This document shows positions 16,531 through 64,000 of a DNA stretch of 64,000 bases, one piece after another. Positions within the stretch are counted from its first letter, which is position 1; each line of letters starts with the position of its first letter. Origin of the DNA: Gluconacetobacter tumulisoli (GTDB taxonomy: Bacteria > Pseudomonadota > Alphaproteobacteria > Acetobacterales > Acetobacteraceae); contig NZ_JABEQM010000002.1 of NCBI RefSeq assembly GCF_014174155.1, positions 124,001-188,000 of the forward strand, given 5' to 3'. The notes beneath the pieces are model-generated. The model was not told where the DNA came from. It saw nothing but the letters and a program-made list of their open reading frames with translations, and made no database searches. The translations under genes and the position numbers were made by a program.

Positions 16531-16543
16531 CACGCGCCCCCGG

Positions 16544-45179: not shown

Positions 45180-46589
45180 TCAGGACGCCACGACCCGAAG
45201 GCCGCCTGATGCAGAGACGGCAGGAGAGCCGCCTCCCCCATCGTTCGACACGCGCGCCGCCTGCGGTCCTTTGGCCGTCCAGCGGTTTTCGGGAACCGGC
45301 AGGCCCAGATGGCCCCGAAGGGTGTCCTGTTCGTAGTCCGTCTTGAAAAGACCGCGCTGCTGGAGGATCGGAATGACGCGTTCGCGGAATAGCGTGAAAT
45401 CGTGGGAAGCCGACACACGGATATTGAATCCGTCGGCGGCGCCGTCGCGGAACCAGCGCTCAATCTCGTCCGCGACCGTCTCCGCCGATCCGACGAAGGA
45501 AAGGCGCCAGGTCCCGTAGCGCTCGGCGGCCTGCCGCAGCGTGAATCCATTCGTCCGGACGCCACGCAGGATACGCTCGGCATGCCCCTTGTAGCTGTTG
45601 AGCGTCAGACCACTGACGTCCGGGAATGGCCCGTCAATCGGATATTGACGGAAATCGTGATAATTGAAGGCACGGCCAAGCGCGACGAGCTTCTGCTCGA
45701 TCGTGATGTCCCCGACGCGCGCCTGGGCGATGGCCTGCGCTTCCTCGTCGGTATCCGCGATGATCGGCGCGATGCCGGGCAGAACGGTGATCAGGTCCGG
45801 ATCGCGGCCGGCGGCCTGCGCCCTGCGCTTCAAATCCTGGTAGTAGTCGCGGGCGCCGTCGAAATCCTCGACGCCGGCGAAGGTCACGTCTGCGATTTCC
45901 GCGCCGAGCTGCCGCCCGTCATTGCTGTCGCCCGCCTGGAAGATCACCGGATAGCCCTGCCTCGAACGGCTCAAGGCGAGCGGGCCGGCGACGGACAGGA
46001 ACTCGCCCTTGTGGTTCAAGGCATGCTGCTTGGATTTGTCCAGGAAGATGCCCCTCTCCTTGTCGCGGGGAAAGGCATCGTCCTCGTAGCTGTCCCACAA
46101 TCCCTTGACGACTTCGACGAACTCCTTCGCGCGGCGATAGCGGACGGCGTGATCCAGGTGCTTGTCGTGTCCGTAATTCCGGGCTGCCCCTTCAAGCCCG
46201 GTGGTCACGACGTTCCAGCCCGCCCGGCCACGGCTGATATGGTCGAGCGAGCCGAACAGCCGCGCGACATTGTAGGGTTCCCAATAGGTGGTGGTCAGCG
46301 TGCCGACCAGGCCGATCTTCGACGTCGAGACGGCCAGCGCCGACAGAAGCGTCAGCGGCTCCAGACGGTTGAGGAAATGCGGCGCCGTATCGGGCGTGAT
46401 GAACGGGCTGTCGACGATGAAGACGAGATCGAATTTCGCTTCCTCCGCCAGCCGGGCATTCCGGATATACCAGTCGATATCGATGCTGGCGTCGGATTGC
46501 AGATCCGGACGGCGCCACAGGGAGAAATCGGTGCCCACACCCGCCAGGATGGCGCCGAGCTTGAGGGTGCGCCGCTTGGAGTGGCTCAT
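45180..46589 (-). CDS. LLM-class flavin monooxygenase, NtaA/SnaA/DszA group
   Basis: 469 aa. Luciferase-like monooxygenase of the larger NtaA/SnaA/DszA (dibenzothiophene-sulfone, nitrilotriacetate) subgroup: KLGAILAGVGTDFSLWRRPD start, GRAGWNVVTTGLEGAARNYG, YRRAKEFVEVVKGLWDSYED and PVIFQAGDSNDGRQLGAEIAD (FMN region). Such enzymes use reduced FMN from a separate reductase to attack C-S or C-N bonds. The C-terminal 40 residues (SNDGGGGSPAV..) are Gly/Ala-rich. GAGGAAGGCCATC precedes ATG 46589. It lies 15 bases from the convergent lysR stop and is divergent from the flavoprotein pair. Confidence 0.9.
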   Translation of the reverse strand: MSHSKRRTLKLGAILAGVGTDFSLWRRPDLQSDASIDIDWYIRNARLAEEAKFDLVFIVDSPFITPDTAPHFLNRLEPLTLLSALAVSTSKIGLVGTLTTTYWEPYNVARLFGSLDHISRGRAGWNVVTTGLEGAARNYGHDKHLDHAVRYRRAKEFVEVVKGLWDSYEDDAFPRDKERGIFLDKSKQHALNHKGEFLSVAGPLALSRSRQGYPVIFQAGDSNDGRQLGAEIADVTFAGVEDFDGARDYYQDLKRRAQAAGRDPDLITVLPGIAPIIADTDEEAQAIAQARVGDITIEQKLVALGRAFNYHDFRQYPIDGPFPDVSGLTLNSYKGHAERILRGVRTNGFTLRQAAERYGTWRLSFVGSAETVADEIERWFRDGAADGFNIRVSASHDFTLFRERVIPILQQRGLFKTDYEQDTLRGHLGLPVPENRWTAKGPQAARVSNDGGGGSPAVSASGGLRVVAS

Positions 46590-47048
46590 GATGGCCTTCC
46601 TCGAATGCTGTGATGGGTCGTCAGGCGCCGATCTTTCGATCTCCGCCTTCCCGCCGCCAGCAAAAAATATTCAATCGATCCATGTGGAAATCAAAACCAT
46701 CGGGACGAACTCAGGACTAAAATTTAAGAATATAAAATCGACGTGCAAAGAAAACTCGCTTGCGAGGGAACCGACCCTCATACGACGTTCGCCGACATCT
46801 GCCGGAGTCTTCAAGGAGCGCCTGCGTTGTTTCCGTCTTCGGCCAGGTTCCGCCCGGGAAAGGCATCGGTGCATATCTATGGGGGCCAGCCAACAGCGAC
46901 GTGCCGGGAACGCGCCGGATGCACGATGGCGCGACCGGCATGTGCGTCCTGCAGGGTTAGGGATATCCGGGAACGTACGTCCTCCCTCCGGCGGTCCGCG
47001 CATGGCGTTGCCCGGCGCCCACATCGATTTCTCAGGATATGACAGGAC
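46590..47048. other. Divergent intergenic region
   Basis: About 460 bases between the LLM gene (minus) and the flavoprotein (plus). No gene is supported; 46680-46760 is AT-rich and is the most likely promoter zone. I looked for SAM/sulfur riboswitch patterns and saw none I would defend. Confidence 0.5.
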
Positions 47049-48644
47049 ATGAAGGCAATAGACGCGGACGTTCTGGTCGTCGGTGGCGGCATGGCCGCGG
47101 GCTGGGCGGCCATTTCCGCCGCGAAGACGGGTGCTTCGGTGGTCGTGGTGGACAAGGGCTTCATGGGGACGAGCGGCGTCACCGCCCCGGCCGGGCCGAA
47201 CCATTGGTGGGTTCCCCCCGACACGGCACAGCGCGAAGCGGCCATCCGACGACGGCTTGAAACCGCGTTCGGCCTGGCGGATCCGGAATGGATGGAACGG
47301 ATCATCGACATCACCTGGCGATCCATCCCCGAACTGGACCCCTATTACCCGTTTTCGGGCGACGGCAAGGGGGGCCTCTTCCGTTCCGGCCTGCGCGGGC
47401 CGGAATATGTGCGGGCACTGCGCCGTTACGCGACGGACCTGGGCGTGCGCGTGCTCGACCATCACCCGGTTCTGGAACTTCTGGGGCGGCGGGATGGCTC
47501 GGTCGGCGGCGCGGGCGGCTACGACCGCCTGGGCGGCGTATCATGGCGCGCCCGCGCCGGGGCGGTGATCCTGGCGACCGGAGGCTGCGGCTTTCGCTCC
47601 GGCCTGATCGGCAGTTATTCCAATACCGGCGACGGCTACCTGATGGGCGTGGAGGCCGGCGCGGACCTGTCCGGCATGGAATTCTGCGTGTCCTATTCCA
47701 TTTCCCCGGCCTGGCTGAGCACGCGGACGCTTCCCTATACCGGCGCACGCTATTACGACGCCTCGGGCGCGGAGATCGACGTTCCGGCCGGGGCGAACCG
47801 CACCCGCGAACATCTGCTCGTCCTTGCGGACGCATTTCGCGCCGGACCGGTCCATGCGGATCTGCACGAGGCGCCGAAGGCGCTGCGGGGGGTGGTGCGC
47901 CAGATCCAGCCGGCGACGGTCGCGGCCTTCGAACGCCGGGGGCTGGACATGTTTCGTGACCGGTTCGAGGTGAAGCTGTTCGGCGAAGGCACGATCCGCG
48001 GCACCGGGGGCTTGCGGATCGTCGATACGGGCTGCGCGACATCGGTGCCCGGGCTTTTCGCGGCAGGAGACGCCGCCACGCGCGAGCATATCGCCGGCGC
48101 GACGAGCGGCGGCGGCGCACAGAACGCCGCCTGGGCGCTCTCGTCCGGCGTCCTGTCGGGCCAGGCCGCCGCCGCCCTGGCGCGCAGGCAGGGCAAGGGG
48201 GCGCCTGACGCGGCGCTGGAACCCCTGGGGCGGGCGGGGCTGCGGCCGGCGGGCGGCAGTCGCGCGGTCGACCGGAAAGCCCTCCAGAAGGCCGCCGGAG
48301 ACGAAATCCTCGATCTCGACAAGGCGTTGCGGCGCCGCGCGGACGGGCTGGAAGCCTCGGCACGGACGCTTGAGGACGGATGGACGGAGATCAGCCAGCA
48401 CCTGCGCGGCGACGGGCGCGACGCGGTTGCGGCCCGCGAGACGGCGGCGATGGTCGCCACGGCCCGCTGGTGCAACGCCGCCGCCCTCGCCCGGACCGAG
48501 AGCCGTGGCATGCATGTGCGTGAGGATTTTCCACGGACCGATCCGCGCCTGGCCTGTCGCCAGATCGTGGGCGGGCTCGATCGGATCCGGATCCGGCCCG
48601 ATGGCGCGCGCCAGGAAAAAACCGGGGGGAAGACAATCGGATGA
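47049..48644 (+). CDS. FAD-dependent oxidoreductase, AprA/fumarate-reductase-like
   Basis: 531 aa. FAD-binding Rossmann motif DADVLVVGGGMAAGWAAISA, then the flavoprotein features of the succinate dehydrogenase/fumarate reductase/adenylylsulfate reductase family: the TSGVTAPAGPNHWW region (catalytic neighbourhood), ILATGGCGFRSGLIGSYSNT, AAGDAATREHIAGATSGGGA near the FAD C-terminal loop. The following gene is a ferredoxin with ATGA overlap, so the two look like an AprAB-type pair; the neighbours handle organosulfur. It probably reduces or oxidises a sulfur species with electrons through the ferredoxin. CAGGAC precedes the ATG. Confidence 0.82.
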   Translation: MKAIDADVLVVGGGMAAGWAAISAAKTGASVVVVDKGFMGTSGVTAPAGPNHWWVPPDTAQREAAIRRRLETAFGLADPEWMERIIDITWRSIPELDPYYPFSGDGKGGLFRSGLRGPEYVRALRRYATDLGVRVLDHHPVLELLGRRDGSVGGAGGYDRLGGVSWRARAGAVILATGGCGFRSGLIGSYSNTGDGYLMGVEAGADLSGMEFCVSYSISPAWLSTRTLPYTGARYYDASGAEIDVPAGANRTREHLLVLADAFRAGPVHADLHEAPKALRGVVRQIQPATVAAFERRGLDMFRDRFEVKLFGEGTIRGTGGLRIVDTGCATSVPGLFAAGDAATREHIAGATSGGGAQNAAWALSSGVLSGQAAAALARRQGKGAPDAALEPLGRAGLRPAGGSRAVDRKALQKAAGDEILDLDKALRRRADGLEASARTLEDGWTEISQHLRGDGRDAVAARETAAMVATARWCNAAALARTESRGMHVREDFPRTDPRLACRQIVGGLDRIRIRPDGARQEKTGGKTIG

Positions 48645-49093
48645 TCGAAGACATTCTTTCGGAACGCTGCACCGGCTGCAACGCATGCGTCGTCGCCTGT
48701 CCCGACCATGTGCTGGATCCGGGCGTGGCCGATGGGCCGCCGGTCATCGCCCGTGTCGAGCAGTGCCAGACCTGCTTCCTCTGCGAACTCCATTGCGCGC
48801 ATGACGCCATCTATGTCGCGGTGGAAGGTCCCGGGGCCGGGACCACGCTCCATCATCCTGAGGCGCTGATCGGGCGTCTTCGCCACGATTACGGCTGGGA
48901 CGGCAGCACCAGCGACCCCTTGCGCGACTTCTGGCAACTGGGGCCGCTGTTGCGAGAGGGGCTGGAGATATCGGCTGCACGCCATGCTCGCCGGCAGACG
49001 CGCGCGCTGAAGGAGGCAGGAACAGGACAGGAGGGAGACGACGCCGCCGGTTATCCCCCAGCGAAGGCGGTGACGGACGACCCGACGGCATGA
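48641..49093 (+). CDS. Two-cluster [4Fe-4S] ferredoxin
   Basis: 150 aa. Two cysteine sets: CTGCNACVVACP (residues ~10-21) and CQTCFLCELHC (residues ~42-52), each C-x2-C-x2-C-x3-C, binding two [4Fe-4S] clusters. It is coupled to the flavoprotein by ATGA (48641-48644) and is comparable to AprB or to the ferredoxin subunit of other flavoprotein pairs. The C-terminal ~70 residues are Asp/Gly-rich and unlike AprB. Electron donor or acceptor for the flavoprotein. Confidence 0.88.
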   Translation: MIEDILSERCTGCNACVVACPDHVLDPGVADGPPVIARVEQCQTCFLCELHCAHDAIYVAVEGPGAGTTLHHPEALIGRLRHDYGWDGSTSDPLRDFWQLGPLLREGLEISAARHARRQTRALKEAGTGQEGDDAAGYPPAKAVTDDPTA

Positions 49094-49839
49094 TGCGCGC
49101 ACCCGGATCAGGCTGGCACAGTCGACGGCAATGGCCCCCATCACCCTGGTCGTCGGTAACCGGCGCGGGCTGATCGATTCCCGCCTCAAGACGACCGGCC
49201 GGCAGCAGAGCCTTTCATACCGGATCCAACGGGCTTCTCGCGGCTGGCGCACCGCCGATCGGCACGTGACGATAAAGGCCATCGTTGAAGACGAGCCGAG
49301 AAGATGTCGCCAGACAAAGCAGACTCTTCGGCATACACGATTGTTCCAACCCGGTCGCGCCACGACAAGCACGACCGCTCACCAGGTGCAGCACGATCAT
49401 CCTGACAGCGCGATCTTCGCCCCTGGCCGGCGATGCGTTCCGACATCTCCGGTAACTGCCATTTTCCGGCAGATGACAGTCATATATGGCGTTGTCCGTC
49501 GTAACGGCAGTTGCCGATCGCCTTCTTGATTCAACGGCTTGTTTCGCAATGCGGTACCATCGTCCGCGCGAGTGTCGTTGACATATTAATAACCACAAAC
49601 ATTCGTGTAATTTTTTCTCGCATGACATTTTCACTCATGCGCACGATATTTTCCCGACAACGCGCTTCACGCATGTTCACGTAAATCCAGACGGTACCCA
49701 CCATCATGACGCCAGGTAACGCGGGGCAGTGTCCGATCAAGGCGCCGCTGAGGCCGTGTAACGCGGCCGCTACGAGCGTGCACAGCTTGATGTTGACGGG
49801 CGATGCGCCCGAGTATTTCGATCCGGGACACAATATTCG
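49094..49839. other. Long intergenic stretch before the TonB receptor
   Basis: About 750 bases. Frames on both strands lack ribosome sites and protein-like composition. From 49560 it is AT-richer than its flanks. It carries an imperfect inverted repeat (GGTAACTGCC near 49450 and GGCAGTTGCC near 49506, separated by about 45 bases). It may be a decayed gene or a regulatory region of the receptor. Confidence 0.45.
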
Positions 49840-52083
49840 ATGACAGAAGACACAAGACAGGCAACAATCAGGCGAGTGAACGGGGCGACGTCCGCGTTCG
49901 TGGCTGGCCTGATTGCGTCCGCGTCCGCCCATGCCGAAAATCTCCCCACCCGCAAGATACCGGCCCCTCATGCCGGCCAGTCAGCGCGTCCGGCACCGCA
50001 TCCCGCCACCTCGCAACCGCCATCCGCCAGGTCTGCGGTGCCTGCGGCAAACGTCGTTCCAGCGCCTGAGACGATCAGCGTCCGCGCCAGCGCGCGCACG
50101 CCGCGCCTGGCCGCCGCGGTTCCATTGGGTGCCTTGGGTGCGCGCTCGGAACTCGACACGCCCTTTGCCATCAGTTCCGTCTCGGCGGCGAAGATGGAGC
50201 AGCTTCAGGCCGCCGATATCAACGACGTGTTTCGCTCGGAACCCGGCGTGCAGGAAAACTCCAATGGCGGATCCACCGCGTCGGGCGCCAGCTTCCGCGT
50301 GCGCGGCCTCAGCCTGGACTGGAGTAACGGGTACAAGATCGACGGCATGGCGATCCCATATTGGTATATCGACCTGCCGATGGCGAATTTCGAACGCCTG
50401 CAACTGACCAAGGGCGCGTCCGCCTTCATGTACGGGTTCGGTTCGCCCGGGGGCGTTCTGGATTTCCAGCTCAAGAAACCGGTCGAGGAACGCAAGCTGA
50501 CGCTCGAGGCGGGCTATCGTACCGATGCGGTGTTCCGCCAGATGCTCGACACCGGCGGGTCTTTTGATCGCGCGCATCGCTTCACCTATCGCCTCGTATT
50601 CGGCAACGAGGTGGGCAATCAGTATAACAGCAGCTTCATGCGCAACACATCGGTATCGTTTTCGACGCGCGCGCAGATTACCGATAATTTCTCCTGGCAT
50701 TTCGACGCATTCTACGATGCCAGCCTGCAGAAGGACATGGTCAACGGCGTCGCCGTCAGTTCAAGCGCCATCGGCCCGAACTTCAATTATCTTGCGCCGA
50801 TCAGCGGACGAGCACCATTCGGCGCACCCGGCTCCTGGAAAACGAACGACGTCAAGGTGTTCCGCACCGGATTTGACTGGAATTTCGCGCCTGGCTGGCG
50901 CGCCGGCATCGCCTATGGCTATACCCACCTCGACGAACGCTTTCCATCGAACCAGGTGACGTTCACGAGTACGAATGGCGACTATTTCTCCCGCGCGTTC
51001 GAACAGGATCGCGTTCTGGGTTATCATCAGGTCGACGCCTCGACCGAGGGACATTTCCAGACTGGCCCGCTCAAACATGACGTGCTGATCGGGATCACAT
51101 GGGAACGGCAGGATTTCGCCGCCGATGCGACAGCCGGCCTGCTGGGTCCGACCGAATACGGAAACATCCATTCCGATCGGCCATCCATCACGGATGCGAC
51201 GAATTTCACTCCGCATCTGTATCATTATCTCGACAATGTGCAGGTGGCGCCTTTCTGGACAGACACGATCAGCTGGCGCAAATGGTCGCTGCTCGCCGGC
51301 GCTCGCTATACGGACTACCAGGAAAACGATTTTTCGACCTCAGGCGCACAGACCGCTGCCCGCCGGAATAATCCCGTAACCCCGATCGTCTCGTTGTCCT
51401 ACAAGGTCGATCCCGGCATCAACGCCTATTTCTCCTATGTCGAGGCAATGCAGACCGGCGGCATCGGCGGTCCCACCAACGTCAACTACATGCAGGTCTT
51501 CGGCCCGATCCGCAGCCAGGAGTACGAGCTCGGGCTGAAGGTGCAAAGACGGATATGGAGCGGCACCGTGGCGTTGTACCGGCTCGACACCGGGTCCGCC
51601 TATACCAACGCGCAGAATTACTACACGCAGGACGGCATTTCCCGTTATCAGGGCGTGGAGGCCGCCGGCGGGGTGCGCGTGACGCGCGACCTCACGCTCA
51701 ACGGCAGCATCACCTACCTCAATGCCTATTATGTATCGGGGCCGGCATCGGTCGTGGACCACAAGCTCGAGGCGGTCGCGCCGTTCCAGGCTTCGTTCGG
51801 CGCGGATTACGCGATCCCGCTGGTGCATGGGCTGAGCGTGAACGGCGGATTCAACTATGTCGGGCCAAGCTGGCTCGACGCCGCGAATACATTCCACCTG
51901 CAATCCTATCTGGTGGGTGATCTGGGCGCATCCTATGTCACGCAGGTCGACAGGCATAAGCTGACCTTCCGCGCGACAGTCAAGAATATCGGCAATGAAC
52001 GCTACTGGGTCAGCCGGGGCAGCTACAACCTGTTCCCCGGCGCGCCACGGACCGTCGTTCTGTCGATGCGTTTCGACCTCTGA
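49840..52083 (+). CDS. TonB-dependent siderophore-type/organosulfur receptor
   Basis: 747 aa. A basic start with a signal (SAFVAGLIASASAHA), then a Pro/Ala-rich stretch, plug domain (SVSAAKMEQLQAADINDVFR, VRGLSLDWSNGYKIDGMAIP, LTKGASAFMYGFGSPGGVLD) and a barrel closing at TVVLSMRFDL. It belongs to the FhuA/FecA-like receptor family by plug pattern. Downstream are LLM and TauD enzymes on the same strand, which suggests it imports a sulfate ester or sulfonate; the P. putida SftP receptor for aromatic sulfates is a precedent. No good ribosome site before ATG 49840. Confidence 0.88.
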   Translation: MTEDTRQATIRRVNGATSAFVAGLIASASAHAENLPTRKIPAPHAGQSARPAPHPATSQPPSARSAVPAANVVPAPETISVRASARTPRLAAAVPLGALGARSELDTPFAISSVSAAKMEQLQAADINDVFRSEPGVQENSNGGSTASGASFRVRGLSLDWSNGYKIDGMAIPYWYIDLPMANFERLQLTKGASAFMYGFGSPGGVLDFQLKKPVEERKLTLEAGYRTDAVFRQMLDTGGSFDRAHRFTYRLVFGNEVGNQYNSSFMRNTSVSFSTRAQITDNFSWHFDAFYDASLQKDMVNGVAVSSSAIGPNFNYLAPISGRAPFGAPGSWKTNDVKVFRTGFDWNFAPGWRAGIAYGYTHLDERFPSNQVTFTSTNGDYFSRAFEQDRVLGYHQVDASTEGHFQTGPLKHDVLIGITWERQDFAADATAGLLGPTEYGNIHSDRPSITDATNFTPHLYHYLDNVQVAPFWTDTISWRKWSLLAGARYTDYQENDFSTSGAQTAARRNNPVTPIVSLSYKVDPGINAYFSYVEAMQTGGIGGPTNVNYMQVFGPIRSQEYELGLKVQRRIWSGTVALYRLDTGSAYTNAQNYYTQDGISRYQGVEAAGGVRVTRDLTLNGSITYLNAYYVSGPASVVDHKLEAVAPFQASFGADYAIPLVHGLSVNGGFNYVGPSWLDAANTFHLQSYLVGDLGASYVTQVDRHKLTFRATVKNIGNERYWVSRGSYNLFPGAPRTVVLSMRFDL

Positions 52084-52106
52084 CTTCAACAGCGAGGAAA
52101 AAACCA

Positions 52107-53186
52107 ATGTCCGTCAATTTCATCGGCTATATCGGCTTCAACAACACGTCTGAAATCCATGGCGTCCGCAAGCGGGTGCTCGATCGAACCTATGTCGTGG
52201 ACGCCCTGCGCGCGCAGGAGGAGGGCGGCTTCGACCGCGTGCTCATCCCGTTCGGCTCCAATTCGCCGGAAAGCCAGATCGTCGCGGCCTATGGCGCGGC
52301 GCTGACGACGCGGCTCGGATTTCTTGTTGCCCACCGGCCGGGCTTCACGCAGCCGACATTGGCCGCGCGCCAGCTTGCGACGCTCGACCAGCTTTCCCAG
52401 GGGCGGGTCGCGGTGCATATCATCACCGGCGGCGCGGACGAGGAAATGGCGCGCGACGGCGATATCGGCACCACCAAGGCCGAACGCTACGCGCGATCCG
52501 ACGAATATCTGGCCATCCTGCGCCAGGAATGGTCCGCGAAGACGCCCTTCGATCATGATGGAAAATTCTATCATATCCGCCAGGCCAGCAGCGCGATCCA
52601 TCCCGAGAACCTGCCGGTCTTCTTCGGCGGCACCTCGGCGGAAGCCATCGACGTCGCCGGCCGCCATGCCGACGTCTACGCGACCTGGGGCGAGACGCTC
52701 GATGCGACGCGAGAGATCGTGGCGCGCGTCCGCGCATCGGCGGCCCGCCATGGCCGGCAGATCGGATTTTCGCTTTCGCTGCGCCCGGTGATCGCGGATA
52801 CCGAAGAAGCGGCCTGGAAACGTGCCGACGAGATCGTGGAGCGCGTGCGCGCCAGGCGCGAGGACGCCGGCCTGCCGACCAGCGGTCACCGCCCGCCCAA
52901 CGACGGATCGCGACGCCTGCTGGAAACCGCATCGTCCACGCGTCGCGACGCCAGGCTGTGGACCGGCGTCGCCCAACTGACGGGTGCCGCCGGCAACTCG
53001 ACCGGCCTGGTGGGCACGCCGGAACAGGTCGCCGATGCCCTTCTGGAATATCACAGGATCGGCATAGGAAATTTCCTTATCCGTGGATTCGATCCCCTGG
53101 CCGATGCCATCGCCTATGGCCGCGACCTGATCCCCCTGGTGCGCGAGAAGGTGGCCGCATCGGGCGACCTGGCCGCCGCCAGCTGA
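52107..53186 (+). CDS. LLM flavin monooxygenase, SsuD-like
   Basis: 359 aa. Alkanesulfonate-monooxygenase (SsuD) group: SVNFIGYIGFNNTSEIHG start, ARQLATLDQLSQGRVAVHII then TGGADEEMARDGD (FMN phosphate loop), PVFFGGTSAEAIDVAGRHAD, and the C-terminal FLIRGFDPLADAIAYGRDLI. Such enzymes use FMNH2 and oxygen to release sulfite from sulfonates. The reductase SsuE is not in the window. GAGGAA precedes the ATG, 24 bases after the receptor stop. Close paralog of the products at 54306 and 62952. A TauD-type gene follows. Confidence 0.92.
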   Translation: MSVNFIGYIGFNNTSEIHGVRKRVLDRTYVVDALRAQEEGGFDRVLIPFGSNSPESQIVAAYGAALTTRLGFLVAHRPGFTQPTLAARQLATLDQLSQGRVAVHIITGGADEEMARDGDIGTTKAERYARSDEYLAILRQEWSAKTPFDHDGKFYHIRQASSAIHPENLPVFFGGTSAEAIDVAGRHADVYATWGETLDATREIVARVRASAARHGRQIGFSLSLRPVIADTEEAAWKRADEIVERVRARREDAGLPTSGHRPPNDGSRRLLETASSTRRDARLWTGVAQLTGAAGNSTGLVGTPEQVADALLEYHRIGIGNFLIRGFDPLADAIAYGRDLIPLVREKVAASGDLAAAS

Positions 53187-53280: not shown

Positions 53281-54126
53281 ATGAATGCGATTACCAGACT
53301 GGGAAGCTTCACGATAACGCCGCTGCAGCCAACCATCGGGGCCGAGATCGGCGGGCTCGACCTGCGCGCGCCGATCACGGACGAGGTCCGGGACGCGCTG
53401 AAACAGGCGCTTCTGCGCCACAAGGTCCTGTTTTTCCGTGACCAGATCATCGACACCCATCAGCAGGCCGCGTTCGCGAACCGGTTCGGACCGCTCTATA
53501 CCCATCCCAGCACGCATCGCTCGCCCGCAATTCCTTCGGCACATGCGATTTCAGCCGAGGAATTCAAAACCTACGCCGCCGATTACGACACGCGGCGTCA
53601 GGGCTGGGACGCCTATCATACCGATACGAGCTGGCGCCTGGTGCCGACCTGGGGCGCGGTCCTGCGCGCGGTCAATTTGCCGGAACAGGGGGGCGACACG
53701 ATCTGGGTCGACGGCGCACGCGCGCTTGAAACATTGCCCGACGACGCCCGGGCACGACTGGAAGGCCTTCACGTCACGCATGATTTCGGCAGTTCGCTGA
53801 AGCGGGCAGGCCACGAATACCCGATCGTGGCGCACCCCGCGATCCGCACCCATCGCGAGACGGGGCAGAAGATCCTGTGGGTGAATTTCTCGCTGCGCCC
53901 GACGCTGATCGGTCTCGATATCGCGGAAAGCCGCGAATTGCTGACGATCGTCAGCGACCAGTATCGCCGGCCGGAAAACCAGGTGCGCTTCTCGTGGCGC
54001 CCCGGCTCGCTCGCCTTCTGGGACAATCGTGCCGCCGTCCATTACGCCGTACGCAATTACGGGGATTTTCCGCGCCTGCTCGAACGGATCCTGATCGCGG
54101 ACGAACCGCTTTACGCGGATCTCTGA
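53281..54126 (+). CDS. TauD/TfdA-type 2OG-Fe(II) dioxygenase
   Basis: 281 aa. Typical TauD length. The iron ligands are H113 and D115 (AYHTDTSW) and H254 (VHYAVRNYGDFPRLLERI), with the 2-oxoglutarate arginine at R265/R269. It hydroxylates the carbon next to sulfur or oxygen, releasing sulfite from taurine (TauD) or sulfate from alkyl sulfates (AtsK). Context (TonB receptor, LLM) fits either role. GAGGAACTGTCATC precedes the ATG. About 95 bases from the LLM gene upstream; probably the same transcript. Confidence 0.93.
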   Translation: MNAITRLGSFTITPLQPTIGAEIGGLDLRAPITDEVRDALKQALLRHKVLFFRDQIIDTHQQAAFANRFGPLYTHPSTHRSPAIPSAHAISAEEFKTYAADYDTRRQGWDAYHTDTSWRLVPTWGAVLRAVNLPEQGGDTIWVDGARALETLPDDARARLEGLHVTHDFGSSLKRAGHEYPIVAHPAIRTHRETGQKILWVNFSLRPTLIGLDIAESRELLTIVSDQYRRPENQVRFSWRPGSLAFWDNRAAVHYAVRNYGDFPRLLERILIADEPLYADL

Positions 54127-56419: not shown

Positions 56420-57339
56420 CGCACCCGCAGAACTTTCGTGCGGGCGATCCGGAACCGGCCGCCGCCCACGTCGCTCTGACCGACGCGGCGCTGGCCGAAC
56501 TGCGCGATCTTGCCCGCCGCCCGCACGCACGACCCGACCTGCCGGCCTGCCGGGCGACCATGGCACGGATACGGCGCCTTCTGCACGAAGGCCCCGGATT
56601 TGCCGTCCTCGGCACGCTCCCCCTCGACGGGATGACGCAGGACGCGGCCCGCGGACTGTTCCAGCGTCTCGCCACCATGGTGGCCCGGCCCGTCGCGCAG
56701 AAATTCACCGGCACCGCGATCTATGACGTGCACGACACCGGGCGCCATGCCCTGCCCGGCAGCGGCGTGCGGCCGGACCAGACCAACATCGAACTCAGCA
56801 TCCATAACGACAACGCCTACAACACGACACTGCCCGAGATCGTTGTTCTGCTGTGCCTGCGTCCCGCCGCCCGGGAAGAGGAAGGCTGGAACCGAGTCCT
56901 GAGCTTCGCGGCCCTGCACGAAGTTCTGGCCGCGCGGTTCCCCGCGTTGCTGCCGCGCCTGTATCGCCCCTTTCCCTTCGACCGGCAGCGCGAACATGCG
57001 CCGGACGAGTCCCCGATCCTGCACGCGCCGATTTTCGCACGCGAGGACGGGCGCCTGGTCACCCGGATGGGCCTGCATCAGATACGCTCGGGCTACGTGA
57101 TGACCGGCGAGACCATGAGCACGGAGACGCAGGCGGCACTCTCGGCGGTCACGCAAACACTCGCTGACCCATCGCTGGCCGTCGATCTGCGCCTGCGGGC
57201 GGGCGAGATGCTGTTCATCGCCAATCGCGCGATCGGGCACAGCCGCACCGGCTTCATCGACCCGCCGGACCGGGACCGAAAACGGCTGATGGTCCGCCTC
57301 TGGCTGCGCGACAGCGGATCGATAGCCTACGCGGGATAG
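56416..57339 (+). CDS. TauD/TfdA-type dioxygenase, divergent member
   Basis: 307 aa. It is further from TauD than the protein at 53281. Iron ligands: H130 and D132 (LSIHNDNAY); distal His in IANRAIGHSRTGF and the arginines in RKRLMVRLWLR. Resembles clavaminate-synthase-like/TauD relatives. Its ATG (56416) overlaps the SBP stop (ATGA), so it is made with the SBP and LLM. An ATG at 56404 is also in frame. Oxygenates a sulfur- or amine-bearing carbon by inference from the operon; the substrate is unknown. Confidence 0.85.
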   Translation: MTHPQNFRAGDPEPAAAHVALTDAALAELRDLARRPHARPDLPACRATMARIRRLLHEGPGFAVLGTLPLDGMTQDAARGLFQRLATMVARPVAQKFTGTAIYDVHDTGRHALPGSGVRPDQTNIELSIHNDNAYNTTLPEIVVLLCLRPAAREEEGWNRVLSFAALHEVLAARFPALLPRLYRPFPFDRQREHAPDESPILHAPIFAREDGRLVTRMGLHQIRSGYVMTGETMSTETQAALSAVTQTLADPSLAVDLRLRAGEMLFIANRAIGHSRTGFIDPPDRDRKRLMVRLWLRDSGSIAYAG

Positions 57340-57703: not shown

Positions 57704-58672
57704 ATGACCCCTGCCGCCCGCACCCCGTTCCGTCGCATCCTGGGCACTCTTGCCCTTCTGTGCCTCCCGCTTCTTTCGACGAGCGGCGCATCAGCCGCCC
57801 GGGCGGATGACGAACTGGTGGTCGCGGACCAGAAGGGGCAGCAGAAGGCGTTGCTGGAGGCCGCCGGGGCCGACCGGGACCTGCCCTATCGCATTCGCTG
57901 GGTCGAGTTCGAGGCCGCCGCTCCGCTGCTGCAGGCGCTGGGGGCCGGGGCGGTCGATACCGGCATCGCGGGCGACGGGCCATTCCTGTTCGCCTGGGGC
58001 GCGGGCCTGCCGGTCAAGGCCGCCCAGCTGATCCCGCCGCGCGGGGGCGGCCGGGCCACGGCGGTGGTGGTGTCGGCGGGATCGGCGATCCGCGGCCTGT
58101 CCGACCTGTCGGGCAGGCGGGTCGCGACCGGGCGCGGGTCCATCGGCCACCTGCTCCTGCTGCGCCTGATCCAGACGGGGGCGATCCCGGCGCCGGCACC
58201 GCGAATCGTATTCCTGGCCCCGGCCCAGGCCAAGGCGGCGCTGGATAGCGGCGGCATCGACGCCTGGTCGACGTGGGAACCCTATGTCTCGCTGGAAACG
58301 GTGCAGAATCACGGACACGTCCTGGCCGATGGCGCGGGCCTCATGCCGAACAACAGCTTCTTCGTCGCGACCGACGCCGCGCTGGCGCACAAGCACGCCG
58401 AACTGGCCGATTTCTATCGCCGCGTCGCCCGGGCCTATGCGTGGGGCGGCGGGCACCAGCAGGATTATGCCGCGCTTCTGGCGCGCCAGACCGGCCTGCC
58501 GCAGGCAGTCGCACAGGCGGTGGCGCAGAAGCTGATCGCCACCCCCGCCGCCATCGACGACACGGTCGTGCAGGCCGAGCGGACCACGCTGCAGACATAC
58601 CGCTCGGCCGGCTTCCTGTCCTCGGCCGGCCCGTTCGAGACGGCGTTCGACCGAAGCTTCACCCAGCCATGA
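57704..58672 (+). CDS. ABC-type substrate-binding protein, SsuA/TauA-like
   Basis: 322 aa. Signal peptide (RRILGTLALLCLPLLSTSGA, cleavage near SAARA), then the type-2 binding fold (RIRWVEFEAAAPLLQALGAG, AVVVSAGSAIRGLSDLSGRR, GIDAWSTWEPYVSLETVQNH). The SsuA-like DAWSTWEPY motif is clear. A second, distinct SBP for organosulfur compounds beside the one at 55454; no cognate permease in the window. Start at ATG 57704; the in-frame extension upstream (57605) is not protein-like. Confidence 0.88.
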   Translation: MTPAARTPFRRILGTLALLCLPLLSTSGASAARADDELVVADQKGQQKALLEAAGADRDLPYRIRWVEFEAAAPLLQALGAGAVDTGIAGDGPFLFAWGAGLPVKAAQLIPPRGGGRATAVVVSAGSAIRGLSDLSGRRVATGRGSIGHLLLLRLIQTGAIPAPAPRIVFLAPAQAKAALDSGGIDAWSTWEPYVSLETVQNHGHVLADGAGLMPNNSFFVATDAALAHKHAELADFYRRVARAYAWGGGHQQDYAALLARQTGLPQAVAQAVAQKLIATPAAIDDTVVQAERTTLQTYRSAGFLSSAGPFETAFDRSFTQP

Positions 58673-58781: not shown

Positions 58782-59603
58782 ATGAAAGAGCCGATCATGA
58801 GCGGTCTTCCCTTGCAGGCCGGGCGCACGGCATTCGGTGGCAATCCGGACAGCTATGAGGCCGCACGCCCGCCCTACCCGGACGCCGTGTACGCGGCCCT
58901 GCGGGAACGATGCGTGATCGACGGCTCGCGCGTGTTCGAAATCGGGGCCGGGACGGGAAAAGCGACGTTTCCGATTCTGGTCGATCGGCCGGCACGGTTG
59001 ACAGCCATCGAACCCGATCCGCGCCTCGCCACGCATCTCGGCAATCTGGCCGACCGGAACTGGCCGATGCTGGAAATCGTGGCACATCCCTGGGAAGACG
59101 CGGTCCTGCCCGATAATGGCTATGATTTCGGCTTCGCGGCGACGGCCTTTCACTGGCTGCCTCAGGCACAAGCCTTGCGGAAGGTCTTTCAGACCCTCAG
59201 GTCCGGCGGCTGGTGGGCCGCCTGGTGGAACGTCTTCGGGGATCCGGACACGCCCGATGCATTCCATCAGCGCGTGGCCCCCCTGTTTCGAGGCCTGCGG
59301 AATTCGCCGGCATGGGAACCGGGACGGCGACCGTTCGCGCTCGATATCGATGCTCGGGTCGCCGATCTGAAACTGGCCGGCTTCGAACAGCCTGTCGTGG
59401 ATATTCTGCGCTGGACAATCAGCATGGACGCCGGCCAGGTCCGGGCGCTGGCGGCAACATTTTCGGAAGTGGTGAACGCGGAGGCGCCCGCACGGCAGAA
59501 GCTGCTGAACGCACTGGCCTCGGCGGTCGACGACGAGTTCGGCGGCCGGGTCGACAGAAACTTCGTCACGCCTTTGTACATGGCCCGCAGACCCGGCGGC
59601 TGA
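58782..59603 (+). CDS. Class I SAM-dependent methyltransferase
   Basis: 273 aa. SAM-binding motif I is VFEIGAGTGKATFPI; motif II/III region has TAIEPDPRLA and VLPDNGYDFGFAATAFHWLP. UbiE/Methyltransf_11-type. CAAAGG precedes ATG 58782; ATG 58797 is possible. It lies between the SBP and the rhodanese gene, opposite strand to the latter. Substrate unknown; thiol or sulfonate methylation could fit the setting, but that is conjecture. Confidence 0.85.
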   Translation: MKEPIMSGLPLQAGRTAFGGNPDSYEAARPPYPDAVYAALRERCVIDGSRVFEIGAGTGKATFPILVDRPARLTAIEPDPRLATHLGNLADRNWPMLEIVAHPWEDAVLPDNGYDFGFAATAFHWLPQAQALRKVFQTLRSGGWWAAWWNVFGDPDTPDAFHQRVAPLFRGLRNSPAWEPGRRPFALDIDARVADLKLAGFEQPVVDILRWTISMDAGQVRALAATFSEVVNAEAPARQKLLNALASAVDDEFGGRVDRNFVTPLYMARRPGG

Positions 59604-59677: not shown

Positions 59678-61282
59678 TCACTCCAGCACGGAAAATCCGT
59701 GCGTTCCGTCGCGTTCCAGCTGCGCAACCAGGCCGAACTCCCAGTCCAGATACGCCTGCATGGCAGCGGCGGCATTGTCCGTACCCTCGTACGGACGCTT
59801 GTAGACATCCTCAGGACGCGAGAGCGCGCGCCCCGCGTCCAGGCCGGTTTCCAGCGCCTGGCCGGCCGCCTGCCATGCCGCCGTGCCGCCCTCCAGCACC
59901 CGCACGGACAGCCCCGCGCGCGCAAGCTCCGGCGCCGCCAGGCGGGCGGCGAGCCCGTCGGGCGAGGTCAGCACGATATCCGCCCCCTCCAGGCGCGGAT
60001 GCCCGGGCAGGTCGGGACGTATGGCGAACACGGCCCCCGGCACATGCCCCTTGCGGAAAGCCGGGCTGGCGGCAAGGTCGATCACCAGCGGCCCGCCCCC
60101 CGCCGCGCGTTCCGCAAGCAGCCCGGCCACGGACACAGGCTCGGACTCCGGCAGCGGGCCGGCCAGCAGCAGGGGCTCCGGACCGGTCGCACGCGGCAGG
60201 TCCGCCCAGTCGTCCAGCACATAGACCTCCCGCCAGCCGAGCTGCCGCAGCCAGTGGCCGGTCATGCGGGCACGCACGCCGTCATCGTCGGTCAGCACGA
60301 TGGTGCCGTGGCGCACGCCGATCCACTCGTCGGTCGCCTGCACCAGCTGGCCGCCCGGCGCCGAACGGAAGTCCGCGAGATGCCCGGCCGCGTATTCCTC
60401 GGGCGCGCGGACGTCGAGCCGATAGACCGTCCGGCCCGGATCGGCCTGGAACGCCGACAGCGCCGCCGGTCCGATCAACCGCACGCCGGTGCGCCGCGCC
60501 AGCGTCGCCGCCGCGTCGCGGGCCCGCGCCACGTTCGCGTGGGTGGGCGCCTCCCCGACCCGCGTCGCGCCATGGTCCAGTTCCAGTCCCGCCAGGGTCC
60601 AGCCGATGGTGCCGTTGCGCAGCGCGAAGACGGGGTTGGGAATGCCGGCATTGACCAGCGACTGCGCGCCGATGATCGATCGGGTGCGGCCGGCGCAGTT
60701 CACCACCACGGTGGTGGCGGCCGACGGCACGATGTCGCGCACCCGCAGGGCCAGCTCCCCGCCCGGCACGGACTGCCCGCCGGGGATGGACATGACGTGG
60801 TATTCGCTGAAGCGCCGCGCGTCGAGAATCACCAGGTCGTCGCCGCGCGCGATCCGCGCCTGCAGCTCCGGCGCCGGCAGCGACGGCGTGCGGCGGACAT
60901 GCTCGACCAGTTCGCCGAACGCCTTGGACGGCACGTTGACGTCGATGAAGATCTCGCCGCCCGACGCGCGCCAGCCGGCCAACCCGCCTTCCAGCACGCT
61001 GACATTGCCGTAGCCGAGTGCCGCGAAGACCGGCAGCGCACGCGCAACCCGGCCCTCCCCGTCGTCATAGAGCACGACCGGCGCGTCGCGGCGCGGGACC
61101 AGGCCCGCGATCCGTTCCTCGATCCGTCCCAGGGGCAGGTTGACGGCGAACAGCGGATGGGCCGCCGCGAACGGCCCCTCCTCGCGCAGGTCCAGCAGCG
61201 CGATCTCATCCCCCGCGCGCAGAAGGCGCCGCACGTCCTCGGAGGATGTGAGTGCGACGGGCCGCTCCGTCATGGCGTTCAT
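59678..61282 (-). CDS. Four-domain rhodanese-like protein
   Basis: 534 aa, built of four rhodanese folds (residues ~10-110, 135-245, 270-380, 390-495). Only the second has the active-site cysteine (C196 in VVVNCAGRTR); the equivalent positions in the others are Asp or Ser (LYDDGEG, LTDDDGV, LTSPDGL). Multi-domain rhodaneses transfer sulfane sulfur, with inactive domains serving binding or regulation. ATGA overlap with the CDO-like gene (61279-61282) couples them, as in CDO-rhodanese fusions known in Cupriavidus. Probably uses sulfur released by the dioxygenase. The C-terminus has ~40 extra residues. Confidence 0.9.
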   Translation of the reverse strand: MNAMTERPVALTSSEDVRRLLRAGDEIALLDLREEGPFAAAHPLFAVNLPLGRIEERIAGLVPRRDAPVVLYDDGEGRVARALPVFAALGYGNVSVLEGGLAGWRASGGEIFIDVNVPSKAFGELVEHVRRTPSLPAPELQARIARGDDLVILDARRFSEYHVMSIPGGQSVPGGELALRVRDIVPSAATTVVVNCAGRTRSIIGAQSLVNAGIPNPVFALRNGTIGWTLAGLELDHGATRVGEAPTHANVARARDAAATLARRTGVRLIGPAALSAFQADPGRTVYRLDVRAPEEYAAGHLADFRSAPGGQLVQATDEWIGVRHGTIVLTDDDGVRARMTGHWLRQLGWREVYVLDDWADLPRATGPEPLLLAGPLPESEPVSVAGLLAERAAGGGPLVIDLAASPAFRKGHVPGAVFAIRPDLPGHPRLEGADIVLTSPDGLAARLAAPELARAGLSVRVLEGGTAAWQAAGQALETGLDAGRALSRPEDVYKRPYEGTDNAAAAMQAYLDWEFGLVAQLERDGTHGFSVLE

Positions 61283-61878
61283 ACTGCCTCCGCCCGCTTC
61301 GAGCGGTCCCAGAGATTCGGCACATCCTCGCTGGAATAGCCGGAAATGAAGGATTTCTCGATCCCCGTGACCGGATCGTAGGTGGCGCGCGACACGCCGC
61401 CGATATTGTCGCCATAGACATGGATCGAAATCGACGTCTCGTCGGCCAGCGCGTTGGCGACCAGGTGATAATCGTTCACGCCCGGGGCCAGGAACGCGAC
61501 ATCGCCGGGATCCAGCACGCTGGTCTCGCCGGCATGGAAGCTGCCGTCGGCCGCCCGCGTGAACTGGGTCTCGCTCTCGCGCCCGCGCAGCATGCCGATC
61601 AGGCCCCAGACGCGATGGTCGTGCAGCGGCGTCTTCTGCCCCGGCCCCCAGACGAAACTGACGACCGAGAAGCGCTCCAGCGGATCGCAATGCAGCAGGT
61701 ACTGGCTGTATCGTTCCGGGTTCGGGCGGGTAAGGGGCTCGGGCAGCCATCCGTCGTGCGCGACCAGGTCCCGCAGCAGCACGGCCCCTTCCCGCTGGAT
61801 GGCGTCCGGCGGCAGGCCGCGTTCGTGCAGGCGGGTGAAGCGGACGACGAAATCCCGCAGCGGTGCAATCGATGTCAT
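61279..61878 (-). CDS. Cysteine dioxygenase-family thiol dioxygenase
   Basis: 199 aa. CDO_I cupin: iron ligands H86 and H88 (TPLHDHRVWGLIGML) and H153 (SIHVYG); Arg57 (NPERYSQY) is placed to bind the carboxylate. It oxidises a thiol (cysteine or 3-mercaptopropionate) to the sulfinate with O2. Residue choice between Cys and 3-MPA types is not decided here. Start ATG 61878; 5 bases follow the stop of the aldolase gene. The following gene is the four-domain rhodanese, overlapping by ATGA. Confidence 0.9.
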   Translation of the reverse strand: MTSIAPLRDFVVRFTRLHERGLPPDAIQREGAVLLRDLVAHDGWLPEPLTRPNPERYSQYLLHCDPLERFSVVSFVWGPGQKTPLHDHRVWGLIGMLRGRESETQFTRAADGSFHAGETSVLDPGDVAFLAPGVNDYHLVANALADETSISIHVYGDNIGGVSRATYDPVTGIEKSFISGYSSEDVPNLWDRSKRAEAV

Positions 61879-61883
61879 GTCAT

Positions 61884-62693
61884 TCAATCCAGAAGGTCGG
61901 GTTCCAGGGCCACGATCGAATCCCACAGCGGCTGGAACGAGAAATAGCCGCCCTGGTGGGTGCCCACCTGGCCGGCGGTCAGGCGCGCCACGTCGGGCGC
62001 GATCAGTTTCAGCGGGCCGGCCGCCTGCGCCAGCAGCTGGGCATGCGCCGCATTGTCCATGCTGATGAACCACCAGGCGGCGGCCTCGATCGTCGGCCCG
62101 ACCGTCAGCAACCCGTGATTCTGCAGGATCAGCGCCTTGCGCTGCCCCAGCGTCGCGGCCAGGCGCTCGCCCTCGCTCTCATCCAGCACGACGCCGCCAT
62201 ACGGGTCGAACACCACATGGTCCTCGTAGAAGGCGCAGGAATCCTGCGTGATCGGCAGCAGTCCGGTTCCCAGTGCCGAGAACGCCTTGCCGTAGGTCGA
62301 ATGGGTATGGGCCGCGGCAACGACATCGGGGCGCGCCCGGTGCAGGGCCGAATGGATCGTGAAGCCGGCCGTGTTGATCGGCCGATCCCCGACCAGGATC
62401 GTGCCGTCATGATCGACGAGTTGAAGGTCGGAGACCCTGATTCGCGAGAAATGAACGGCCAGGGGATTGATCCAGTACCGATCCGGAAATTCGGGATCAC
62501 GCACGGTGACGTGCCCGGCCAGGCCCTGGTCGAAACCATAGCGCGCGAACAGCCGGAACGTCGCAGCCAGGCGCTGCTTGCGATGCAGCCGCTCCTCTTC
62601 GAACGATGCGGCCGGCGGCCGGGGTTCCAGGCAGCGCTCCCGCGCCCGTGTCGAATCCCCTGCCGGCGCAACGGACGGCGCAATGGCATTCAT
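61884..62693 (-). CDS. Class II aldolase/adducin-family protein
   Basis: 269 aa. Metal-binding histidines in AAAHTHSTYGKAF and LQNHGLLTVG are the class II aldolase/adducin pattern (zinc site as in L-fuculose-phosphate aldolase). This subfamily, with N-terminal FRLFARYGFDQGLAGHVTVR, is widely annotated as 'class II aldolase/adducin' and has no settled function; some members remove C2/C3 units. Placed in the LLM-aldolase-CDO-rhodanese operon it could act on the aldehyde left after sulfite release. ATG 62693 overlaps the stop of the small ORF (ATGA). Confidence 0.88.
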   Translation of the reverse strand: MNAIAPSVAPAGDSTRARERCLEPRPPAASFEEERLHRKQRLAATFRLFARYGFDQGLAGHVTVRDPEFPDRYWINPLAVHFSRIRVSDLQLVDHDGTILVGDRPINTAGFTIHSALHRARPDVVAAAHTHSTYGKAFSALGTGLLPITQDSCAFYEDHVVFDPYGGVVLDESEGERLAATLGQRKALILQNHGLLTVGPTIEAAAWWFISMDNAAHAQLLAQAAGPLKLIAPDVARLTAGQVGTHQGGYFSFQPLWDSIVALEPDLLD

Positions 62694-62941
62694 GCCGACA
62701 GTCCCCTTTCCTCGAAATCAGCAGCCGCATGCGGCATCCAGCGCGGCCCCGCTCCGCAGTCCGGCGGTGGCCGGTCCGGGGCGTCCGTCCGGCTGCGCGA
62801 CGGGCAGGTCAGCAGGATATCGGCGCCATCGACGGCCCGGGGCGCCCCCGCCTTCCGGGCGCCGAACGGCGCCGGCACGGGGCGAGGCCAGGCGCCGGGC
62901 CGGTTGACGGCGACAAGGGCGCGCGACGCAACGTCCGGCAT
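62690..62941 (-). CDS. Possible small operon protein
   Basis: 83 aa, Pro/Arg/Ala-rich, no recognisable domain. Its position argues for reality: it begins 11 bases after the LLM stop and its TGA overlaps the aldolase ATG by ATGA. GAGGGCCGGGCC precedes the ATG. Composition is low-complexity and GC bias can generate such frames, so it may be spurious. Confidence 0.35.
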   Translation of the reverse strand: MPDVASRALVAVNRPGAWPRPVPAPFGARKAGAPRAVDGADILLTCPSRSRTDAPDRPPPDCGAGPRWMPHAAADFEERGLSA

Positions 62942-62951
62942 GGCCCGGCCC

Positions 62952-64000
62952 TCAGGCCGCCGCGGTTCGCACGCGGGCCTCCTCCGCCGCGACCAGGGCG
63001 CGCACGCGGGGGATCAGGTCGCGCCCATAGACATGGGCGTCGAGCAGCGGGTCGAAGCCCCGGATCAGGAAGGTGGTGATGCCGATGCGATAATAATCCA
63101 GCAGCGCCTCCGCCACCTGGTCCGGCGTGCCGACCAGCGAGGTCGAATTGCCCCGGGCCCCGGTCAGCGCCGCAAGGCCCGTCCACAGCCGCTTGTCCAG
63201 ACGTGCCCCCCGGTCGGCCGCTTCCAGCAGCCGGCGCGATCCCTCGTTGGGGATCTCGGCGGGGCGGGCGAAGCCGGTCTTTTCCTGCAGCGCCCGGGCG
63301 GTGTCCAGGATCGCGTCGGCCCTGGCCCAGGCCGCGTCCTCGGTCTCGGCCAGGATCGGGCGCAGCGACAGCGAGAAGCGCGGCGTGCGGCCGTGCCGCG
63401 CGGCGGCCGCGCGCACCCGCGCCACCGTCTCGCCGACCTGCTCATAGGTTTCGCCCCACAGCGCATACACGTCGGCATGCTTGCCCGCGACCGCGATCGC
63501 TTCCTCGGACGATCCGCCGAAATAGACCGGAATCCCCGCCTCGCGGTACGGATGGACCAGCGAATGGGCGCCCCGGGCGTCATAGAACCGTCCCGTGTAA
63601 TCGAAGGGAGCCCGGCTGCTCCATTCGGCCCGGACGATATCCAGGTACTCGCTGGTCCGCGCATAGCGCTCGGCCTTGGTGGTATGGTCGCCATCGGCCT
63701 GCAGCTCGACGTCGCTGCCGCCGGTAATCACATGCAGGGCGACCCGCCCGCGCGTCAGGTGATCCAGCGTCGCGAACTGGCGCGCCGCGATGGTGGGGGC
63801 GTTGAAGCCGGGCCGATGGGCGATCAGCAGCCCCAGGTCCCGCGTGACCGACGCCGCATGCTGGGCCAGCAGGATGCTTTCGGGTGAATTCGAATGAAAG
63901 GCGATCAGCGTCCGGTCGAAACCGCCATTCTCATGGATCTTCGCCGAGGCCTCAACATGGTTCAGGTCGATGACCGGGCCGGTGGGCGGGATGGTCTCCG
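62952..64000 (-). CDS. LLM flavin monooxygenase, SsuD-like, 5' end outside the window
   Basis: 349 C-terminal residues visible; the frame is open to base 64000, so the start is beyond the window. Very similar to the product at 54306: ETIPPTGPVIDLNH, ATLDHLTRGRVALHVI, TGGSDVELQADGDHTTKAER, PVYFGGSSEEAIAVAGKHAD, FLIRGFDPLLDAHVYGRDLI. Third SsuD-like paralog. It heads the minus-strand operon LLM-(small ORF)-aldolase-CDO-rhodanese. Sulfite release from a sulfonate is the expected activity. Confidence 0.93.
   Translation of the reverse strand, partial: ETIPPTGPVIDLNHVEASAKIHENGGFDRTLIAFHSNSPESILLAQHAASVTRDLGLLIAHRPGFNAPTIAARQFATLDHLTRGRVALHVITGGSDVELQADGDHTTKAERYARTSEYLDIVRAEWSSRAPFDYTGRFYDARGAHSLVHPYREAGIPVYFGGSSEEAIAVAGKHADVYALWGETYEQVGETVARVRAAAARHGRTPRFSLSLRPILAETEDAAWARADAILDTARALQEKTGFARPAEIPNEGSRRLLEAADRGARLDKRLWTGLAALTGARGNSTSLVGTPDQVAEALLDYYRIGITTFLIRGFDPLLDAHVYGRDLIPRVRALVAAEEARVRTAAA

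Follow-up and report, generated by a model that had tools for sequence, protein, structure and literature searches.

Why should a Gluconacetobacter genome keep four luciferase-like monooxygenases (LLMs), two 2-oxoglutarate dioxygenases and several SsuA-like binding proteins side by side? The genes in question occupy the right-hand part of a 64,000-nucleotide stretch of Gluconacetobacter tumulisoli (Acetobacteraceae; 3.96 Mb in 49 contigs), referred to here as the window (C2:124001-188000); positions are those of the window, or window-equivalent where a gene lies past its end. Judged from sequence, the locus is quite likely a composite sulfur-scavenging island that probably frees the sulfur of organic compounds under sulfate shortage. 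A preliminary description of the same DNA had proposed organosulfur acquisition, and the family assignments and conserved neighborhoods leave that predicted theme well supported. Most of the island belongs to an ordinary, known kind of nutrient scavenging, and within it lie an under-described enzyme subfamily and a conserved operon.

Gene calls came from a codon-usage script and were checked against Pfam and NCBIfam, and every gene of the preliminary description is an open reading frame (ORF) with the fold ascribed to it. The four LLMs carry PF00296 and lie at 45180-46589 (minus strand), 52107-53186 (plus), 54306-55457 (plus) and 62952-64043 (minus); we refer to the last three, which are SsuD-like, as S1, S2 and S3, and the S3 gene extends 43 bases beyond the window to window-equivalent 64043. 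The genome holds 15 PF00296 matches in total, and the chance of four falling inside 18.9 kb anywhere is about 0.0005 under a crude model of uniform placement that ignores gene duplication. The ATP-binding cassette (ABC) permease and ATPase, rightly described before as out of view, stand at window-equivalent 67673-68683 and 68677-69462. They belong to a series 0.2-5.5 kb past the window edge that also comprises a LysR regulator (64237-65094, divergent from the S3 operon), an AhpC/TSA-type peroxiredoxin (65190-65915), a PF01613 flavin reductase (65881-66432) and a third binding protein of the sulfonate/nitrate type (66615-67676). The sequence thus groups binding proteins, an SsuABC-type importer, a TonB receptor, FMNH2- and 2-oxoglutarate-dependent oxygenases and a flavin reductase with a thiol dioxygenase, a rhodanese and an electron-transfer pair resembling AsfA/AsfB, and many of these genes are grouped likewise in relatives. 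Genes overlap by ATGA at five junctions (48641, 55454, 56416, 61279 and 62690, the last behind a gene stump), so that coupling is real and the earlier wording, by which most genes are so coupled, was generous.

The flavoprotein (47049-48644, plus) and the ATGA-coupled ferredoxin behind it (48641-49093, plus; eight cysteines, two 4Fe-4S motifs) had been read as an AprAB-like pair. This identity was rejected, as the score with NF005331 is 42.6 bits (cut-off, 557); in addition, a structural model of the FAD flavoprotein (mean predicted local distance difference test score [pLDDT], 78.8) ranks complex II/fumarate reductase chains first and AprA (1jnr) 29th. A profile built from 12 relatives has a single strong match on the chromid of Cupriavidus metallidurans CH34 (710 bits, the next 77), which adjoins a ferredoxin and is 46% identical to the island flavoprotein. 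The CH34 genome paper describes asfRAB on this chromid; the CH34 copy searched here is unannotated, and its locus tag is unconfirmed. Papers drawn on here include PMC12947264, PMC2864759, PMC7760384, PMC8234197 and PMC4267179. According to a review, an asf cluster comprises a binding protein, an ABC transporter, a reductase/ferredoxin and a LysR regulator and is activated under sulfate limitation, and an asfA mutant of Pseudomonas putida S-313 lost the use of aromatic sulfonates and kept that of aliphatic ones. The predicted pair is AsfA/AsfB-like and is tied to aromatic sulfonates by that review.

The company kept by AsfA elsewhere was surveyed in the best 80 by score of at least 562 relatives' loci, with flanks of up to 10 kb (some ending at contig ends), tblastn at an E value of 1e-8 and one label per place. 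A ferredoxin occurs in 78 of the 80 loci and directly follows AsfA in 77. Next in frequency come an SsuB-like ATPase (50), an SsuA-like binding protein resembling the second one of the island (48), an NtaA-type LLM (44) and a permease (42), followed by AhpC/TSA-like proteins (29), the aldolase (26), S3-like LLMs (25), TauD (24), the rhodanese (19), the thiol dioxygenase (17) and a second type of LysR regulator, LysR2 (16). Because they belong to large families, the ATPase, permease, LysR and binding-protein labels are less telling than those of the ferredoxin, rhodanese and thiol dioxygenase. Control genes from the same genome stretch were rare or missing: Cpn60 in three loci, the upstream TonB receptor and the HAD hydrolase in none. 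The NtaA/MoxC-type LLM of the island (45180-46589) scores 491 bits with TIGR03860 (cut-off, 280), and its nearest solved structures are 3sdo, YtnJ and MoxC. It converges with a LysR-type regulator at 44193-45164 (plus; PF03466, PF00126).

These counts bear on the simplest alternative, that unrelated oxygenases and transporters have come to lie together by chance. A methyltransferase and a siderophore-like TonB receptor fit ill with their surroundings and would favor it. The reading is contradicted by the co-occurrence of the genes in distant genera and by conserved gene order, and the clustering probability also speaks against it; we consider it very improbable.

The under-described subfamily is represented by S1, S2 and S3, which share the LLM TIM-barrel fold, are 58-71% identical to one another and are 32-35% identical to Escherichia coli SsuD. 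They score 206-221 bits with the SsuD equivalog models, less than half the cut-offs of 510 and 518 (TIGR03565, 518.2), and the genome's own SsuD on contig C3, which served as a control, exceeds both (649 and 608 bits, the latter with TIGR03565). In the MsuD structure paper, the sulfonate is bound by W195, R225, R296 and an RGGA loop, H227 and Y330 line the site, and the R225A, R296A and W195A variants gave no measurable sulfite. S1-S3 keep the tryptophan, and in MsuD numbering they have serine for R225, threonine for R296 and TGAA, TGGR or TGAR for the loop. Both sulfonate-binding arginines (R226 and R297 in SsuD numbering, used hereafter) are thus replaced, and SsuD/MsuD membership, as read in the preliminary description, was rejected on this ground and on the equivalog scores; the substrate assigned to these enzymes is where the preliminary description is weakest.

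The exchange extends well beyond this genome. We compared S1-S3 with 57 S-type relatives from neighborhood loci other than the island's own (coverage of at least 0.8; short loci L016-L053 left out), a set that includes genomes fetched twice and is reduced to 44 at <95% and 27 at <80% identity. S226, R228, R329 and F331 are present in all 60 enzymes, W196 is present in 59, and residue 297 is threonine in 53, leucine in 6 and serine in 1. Three other LLMs from the same search are nearer SsuD; of these, one carries the complete SsuD set, another keeps R-H-R-Y and the third has neither set. Because the first loci had been picked through their organosulfur neighbors, 20 further family regions, mostly of low identity, were examined. 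All 21 S-type enzymes in them, down to 46% identity, have S226, R228 and R329, and none has arginine at 297; positions 196 and 331 are W and F in 16 and F and W in 5. One SsuD-type enzyme in these regions keeps the SsuD residues, as does the SsuD on C3. In total, S1-S3 and 78 relatives, some of them duplicates, were checked. In the LLM tree, which also contains two very long-branched SsuD-like rows, the branch between the S-type enzymes and SsuD measures 2.5 changes per column and has support of 100/100. S2 and S3 fall in one Acetobacteraceae clade, S2 being a paralogue of S3, and S1 groups with enzymes of sphingomonads, Asticcacaulis and G192. In a family sample of 200 genomes, 55 encode LLMs close to S3 (E value, 1e-85), and S3 relatives occur in 8 of the 14 genomes sampled from the genus, this one included in both.

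Could S1-S3 be plain broad-range alkanesulfonate monooxygenases in which the arginine changes are neutral? Such a reading concerns one part and is compatible with a sulfur-scavenging island. The retention of W196 in 59 of 60 enzymes and the SsuABC-type importers that adjoin several S-type LLMs speak in its favor, as does the S1 model (m51181318e93c; mean pLDDT, 82.6), whose top structural match is MsuD bound to FMN and methanesulfonate (TM score, 0.82). Set against this are the loss of measurable sulfite when MsuD R225 or R296 is mutated, positions at which S-type enzymes have S and T, L or S, the equivalog scores and the length of the separating branch, and we hold neutrality to be rather unlikely. 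S1-S3 have probably kept the ability to bind a small anion, with arginines 228 and 329 in place of 226 and 297. Strands of the S1 model end at 225 and 325, just ahead of its R226 and R326 (SsuD 228 and 329), positions that should be near the substrate because MsuD H227 and Y330 line the sulfonate site; the two arginines may contact the substrate.

S3 stands at the head of the conserved operon. Of the 15 Acetobacteraceae loci in which S3 and the aldolase occur together with the thiol dioxygenase and the rhodanese, 13 have the order S3, 2-hydroxyacid dehydrogenase, aldolase, thiol dioxygenase, rhodanese with a divergent LysR gene (G123, G221, G227, G220, G229, G205, G202, G201, G135, G009, G001, G056 and G192); the G228 locus is cut by contig ends. 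In the island, the operon runs on the minus strand from S3 through a dehydrogenase remnant (62690-62941), a class II aldolase/adducin family protein (61884-62693; NF004855 [PRK06208], 427 bits, cut-off 255) and the thiol dioxygenase (61279-61878) to the rhodanese (59678-61282), and the right-hand half of the island is a block common within the family. The aldolase had been absent from the earlier gene list. The divergent side usually carries a peroxiredoxin, a flavin reductase and an ABC importer and varies: G009 and G001 have no flavin-reductase match, G042 has no importer match, the G056 region has none of these genes and the G192 region is cut. The two exceptions to the core order are this genome and G042. 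Here the D-2-hydroxyacid dehydrogenase is reduced to an 83-codon ORF with most of the gene gone, so that this ORF was rejected as a new small protein; 13 relatives have a match to 90-100% of the dehydrogenase length at the corresponding position. No close homologue replaces it in this genome, the best other full-domain matches being 34-43% identical, and G042 lacks the gene at this position and has a homologue of 64% identity some 13 kb distant. The five-gene core was not found in the titles and abstract openings of the literature searched.

The thiol dioxygenase had been described as a cysteine dioxygenase. Four bacterial structures match at 200-223 bits, two of them (200-204 bits) named 3-mercaptopropionate dioxygenase and the best two (213-223) named "Cysteine dioxygenase type I" by their depositors, versus at most 23 bits for entries named cysteine dioxygenase type 1. 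On account of this difference the enzyme is assigned to the 3-mercaptopropionate-dioxygenase type, and it has the three histidines (H86, H88 and H138) and a Ser-His-Tyr triad (S151, H153 and Y155), the triad being taken from the abstract of PMC10966181. The rhodanese (PF00581 in four stretches) has four domains and a lone cysteine, C196, in a CAGRTR loop; the other domains look noncatalytic. Among the best 80 AsfA loci, the dioxygenase and rhodanese are adjacent on one strand, dioxygenase first, in all 17 loci with both, and the rhodanese occurs alone in two. In Pseudomonas protegens, the homologous pair appears to be one transcription unit and a 3mdo mutant accumulated 3-mercaptopropionate.

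Presence of a dehydrogenase and a class II aldolase raises another reading of the operon, as carbon-side catabolism of one mercapto- or sulfo-hydroxyacid (mercaptolactate- or sulfolactate-like, for example) rather than a general sulfur scavenger. Conservation of both genes within the operon favors this, as does their occurrence near these genes outside Acetobacteraceae (G209 and G212). Yet importer and binding protein alike belong to the sulfonate/nitrate type, the dehydrogenase has been lost in two Gluconacetobacter, the Curvibacter region (G217) has no dehydrogenase match, and no CoA ligase or other carbon-pathway gene was found among the island genes searched. This reading too concerns only one part, and we think it unlikely. 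More doubtful still is a specific scenario for the S-type enzymes, in which they form a separate SsuD-like family with a moved anion clamp, S3 takes, in place of an alkanesulfonate, the sulfinate (or a related oxidized product) from the thiol dioxygenase on to sulfite and the rhodanese acts as sulfur carrier in this line of assimilation from thiol to sulfite.

Under the favored reading of a sulfur-scavenging island, organosulfur anions would be imported through TonB and ABC systems under sulfate shortage. With FMNH2 supplied by the flavin reductase, the LLMs and the TauD-like enzyme would oxygenate the carbon beside sulfur and release sulfite. AsfA/AsfB may pass electrons to the oxygenation of aromatic sulfonates, in which the NtaA-type LLM perhaps takes part; the thiol dioxygenase could convert a mercapto acid to a sulfinate, and the rhodanese would handle sulfane sulfur. 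The sulfite would pass to cysteine through the genome's sulfite reductase, with cysE next door; because contig C1 encodes a sulfite reductase as well as two PF01507 proteins, the genome can probably assimilate sulfite. The substrates and the induction of the island genes are inferred.

Several observations weigh against this picture. The thiol dioxygenase occurs in 50 of the 200 family genomes, this one included, and 5 of 12 thiol-dioxygenase regions (G171, G072, G003, G033 and G011 C6) have no rhodanese, aldolase or S3 nearby; a constant tie to the rhodanese was accordingly rejected. An S3-type LLM and the thiol dioxygenase are close together in only 8 of 28 genomes with both (G000, G123, G042, G135, G009, G001, G056 and G192; broken contigs may hide more), which likewise disposed of the idea that S-type LLMs always accompany it. 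Deleting tst, the rhodanese partner in P. protegens, had no significant effect on 3-mercaptopropionate. The dehydrogenase, reduced to a stump here and absent from the corresponding position in G042, is therefore dispensable or replaced. By its score, the TonB receptor falls among the siderophore receptors, and the methyltransferase fits no pathway step.

Both putative 2-oxoglutarate dioxygenases, described earlier as TauD-type, carry PF02668, and one of them is TauD-like. That enzyme (53281-54126, plus) is 39% identical to E. coli TauD, keeps the iron ligands (HxD at 113, distal H at 254) and scores higher against TauD (176 bits) than against AtsK (119 bits); it is below the TauD equivalog cut-off (208 versus 313) and differs from TauD at positions 73 and 95, which we take to be taurine contacts. 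The sulfate-ester use of the AtsK type suggested before finds no footing in these scores, and no sulfatase-family match was obtained among the island genes in the Pfam and NCBIfam searches. The second protein (56416-57339, plus; PF02668, 87 bits; ATGA-coupled) is FrbJ/asparagine-oxygenase-like: it matches 7n7v at 75 and FrbJ at 68 bits, with no TauD among the four structure matches listed, and was rejected as a second TauD. Its type recurs among the best 80 AsfA loci in Gluconacetobacter aggeris only. The two SsuA-like binding proteins (55454-56419, ATGA-coupled, and 57704-58672; both plus) and the TonB receptor (49840-52083, plus; TIGR01783 at 239 bits, cut-off 223.5; PF00593, PF07715) are where they had been placed. 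The methyltransferase (58782-59603, plus; PF08241), possibly unrelated to the island, had been missing from the earlier gene list.

The history of the left half is less regular. Its GC content (0.61-0.66 at 46-54 kb) is below that at 58-64 kb (0.69-0.71), and AsfA has a patchy record: it is present in 8 of the 200 family genomes, this one included, is 87% identical to a G. aggeris and 85% to a Gluconacetobacter tumulicola protein, and is 70-87% identical across G. aggeris, G. tumulicola and G229 versus 48% to the same-genus G123 and G042. Lower GC and this record suggest that the left half was exchanged or replaced. A clear sphingomonad origin was rejected, since AsfA is 55-60% identical to sphingomonad proteins yet 74-76% to those of Acetobacter. 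The G. tumulicola AsfA gene (L166 4954-6556; L099 10001-11603) matches as two abutting pieces, which suggests a frameshift or an assembly error. AsfA-type flavoproteins also occur outside Proteobacteria, in Nostoc, Komarekiella and Paenibacillus (L145, L146, L149-L152 and L154-L157), some as two copies close by. Behind the ferredoxin, two short tblastn pieces at 49082-49229 (plus; 50% and 56% identity to an SsuA-like binding protein), weak alone, mark a probable remnant of such a gene; at the same place between ferredoxin and TonB receptor, G. aggeris has a full-length binding-protein gene (L164:4707-5672).

Around the island, cysE (window-equivalent 69647-70459) and a Cpn60 gene (70595-72220) form one border, and G229 and G228 have the same flanking. 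Upstream, at 37897-43989, lie a major facilitator superfamily (MFS) transporter, an HbpS-like protein, an IclR regulator, a second TonB receptor and a HAD hydrolase. A scan of Rfam returned no match at gathering score, and a tRNA scan of the window found none. A second organosulfur cluster is present on contig C3 (L074, C3:138001-158000, at 8576-16832), with an SfnB-like enzyme below its cut-off, two NtaA-type LLMs, the SsuD used as a control, a flavin-reductase-like match and a TonB receptor.

If the arginine exchange shifts the substrate, the name alkanesulfonate monooxygenase is wrong for the S-subfamily proteins that bear it, such as the S1-type protein in the record of Sphingobium sp. TomTYG65, and so are predictions of sulfonate use based on them. 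The conserved S3 operon gives a defined path, open to testing, by which organic thiols or sulfinates could lead towards cysteine. Genes of the asf type, which serve as a marker of aromatic sulfonate use in soil, are now placed in acetic acid bacteria; among the papers listed by literature searches, nothing specific on organosulfur use in these bacteria was found.

Compared with known systems, the island shares with asfRABC of P. putida S-313 and asfRAB of C. metallidurans the tandem FAD flavoprotein and ferredoxin, with LysR and SsuA-like proteins nearby. Unlike there, the pair stands beside an NtaA-type LLM, the binding-protein gene adjoining the ferredoxin is a stump, and the permease and ATPase are not directly adjacent. 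From ssuEADCB and MsuD of E. coli and Pseudomonas it has the FMNH2-type TIM-barrel LLM, the flavin reductase and the SsuABC-type importer, but its LLMs lack R226 and R297, its flavin reductase is of the PF01613 family and the true SsuD is elsewhere in the genome. As with tauABCD, there is a TauD-family dioxygenase with its iron ligands, though one below the cut-off and altered at positions 73 and 95, with no TauABC adjoining. The thiol dioxygenase lies directly upstream of the rhodanese, as in 3mdo-tst (PA2602-PA2603; P. protegens CHA0 c14110-c14100), whereas the island pair is downstream of S3, the dehydrogenase stump and the aldolase and faces a divergent importer operon. The likeness extends to Sphingobium sp. 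TomTYG65 and Novosphingobium sp. KACC 22771, where one 31-kb stretch holds an NtaA-type LLM, AsfA, the ferredoxin, a binding protein like the second one here, an S1-type LLM, the rhodanese and the thiol dioxygenase. TomTYG65 also has TauD, as the island does, and adds an arylsulfatase and an MFS transporter; the aldolase operon and S2/S3 set the island apart from both sphingomonad stretches.

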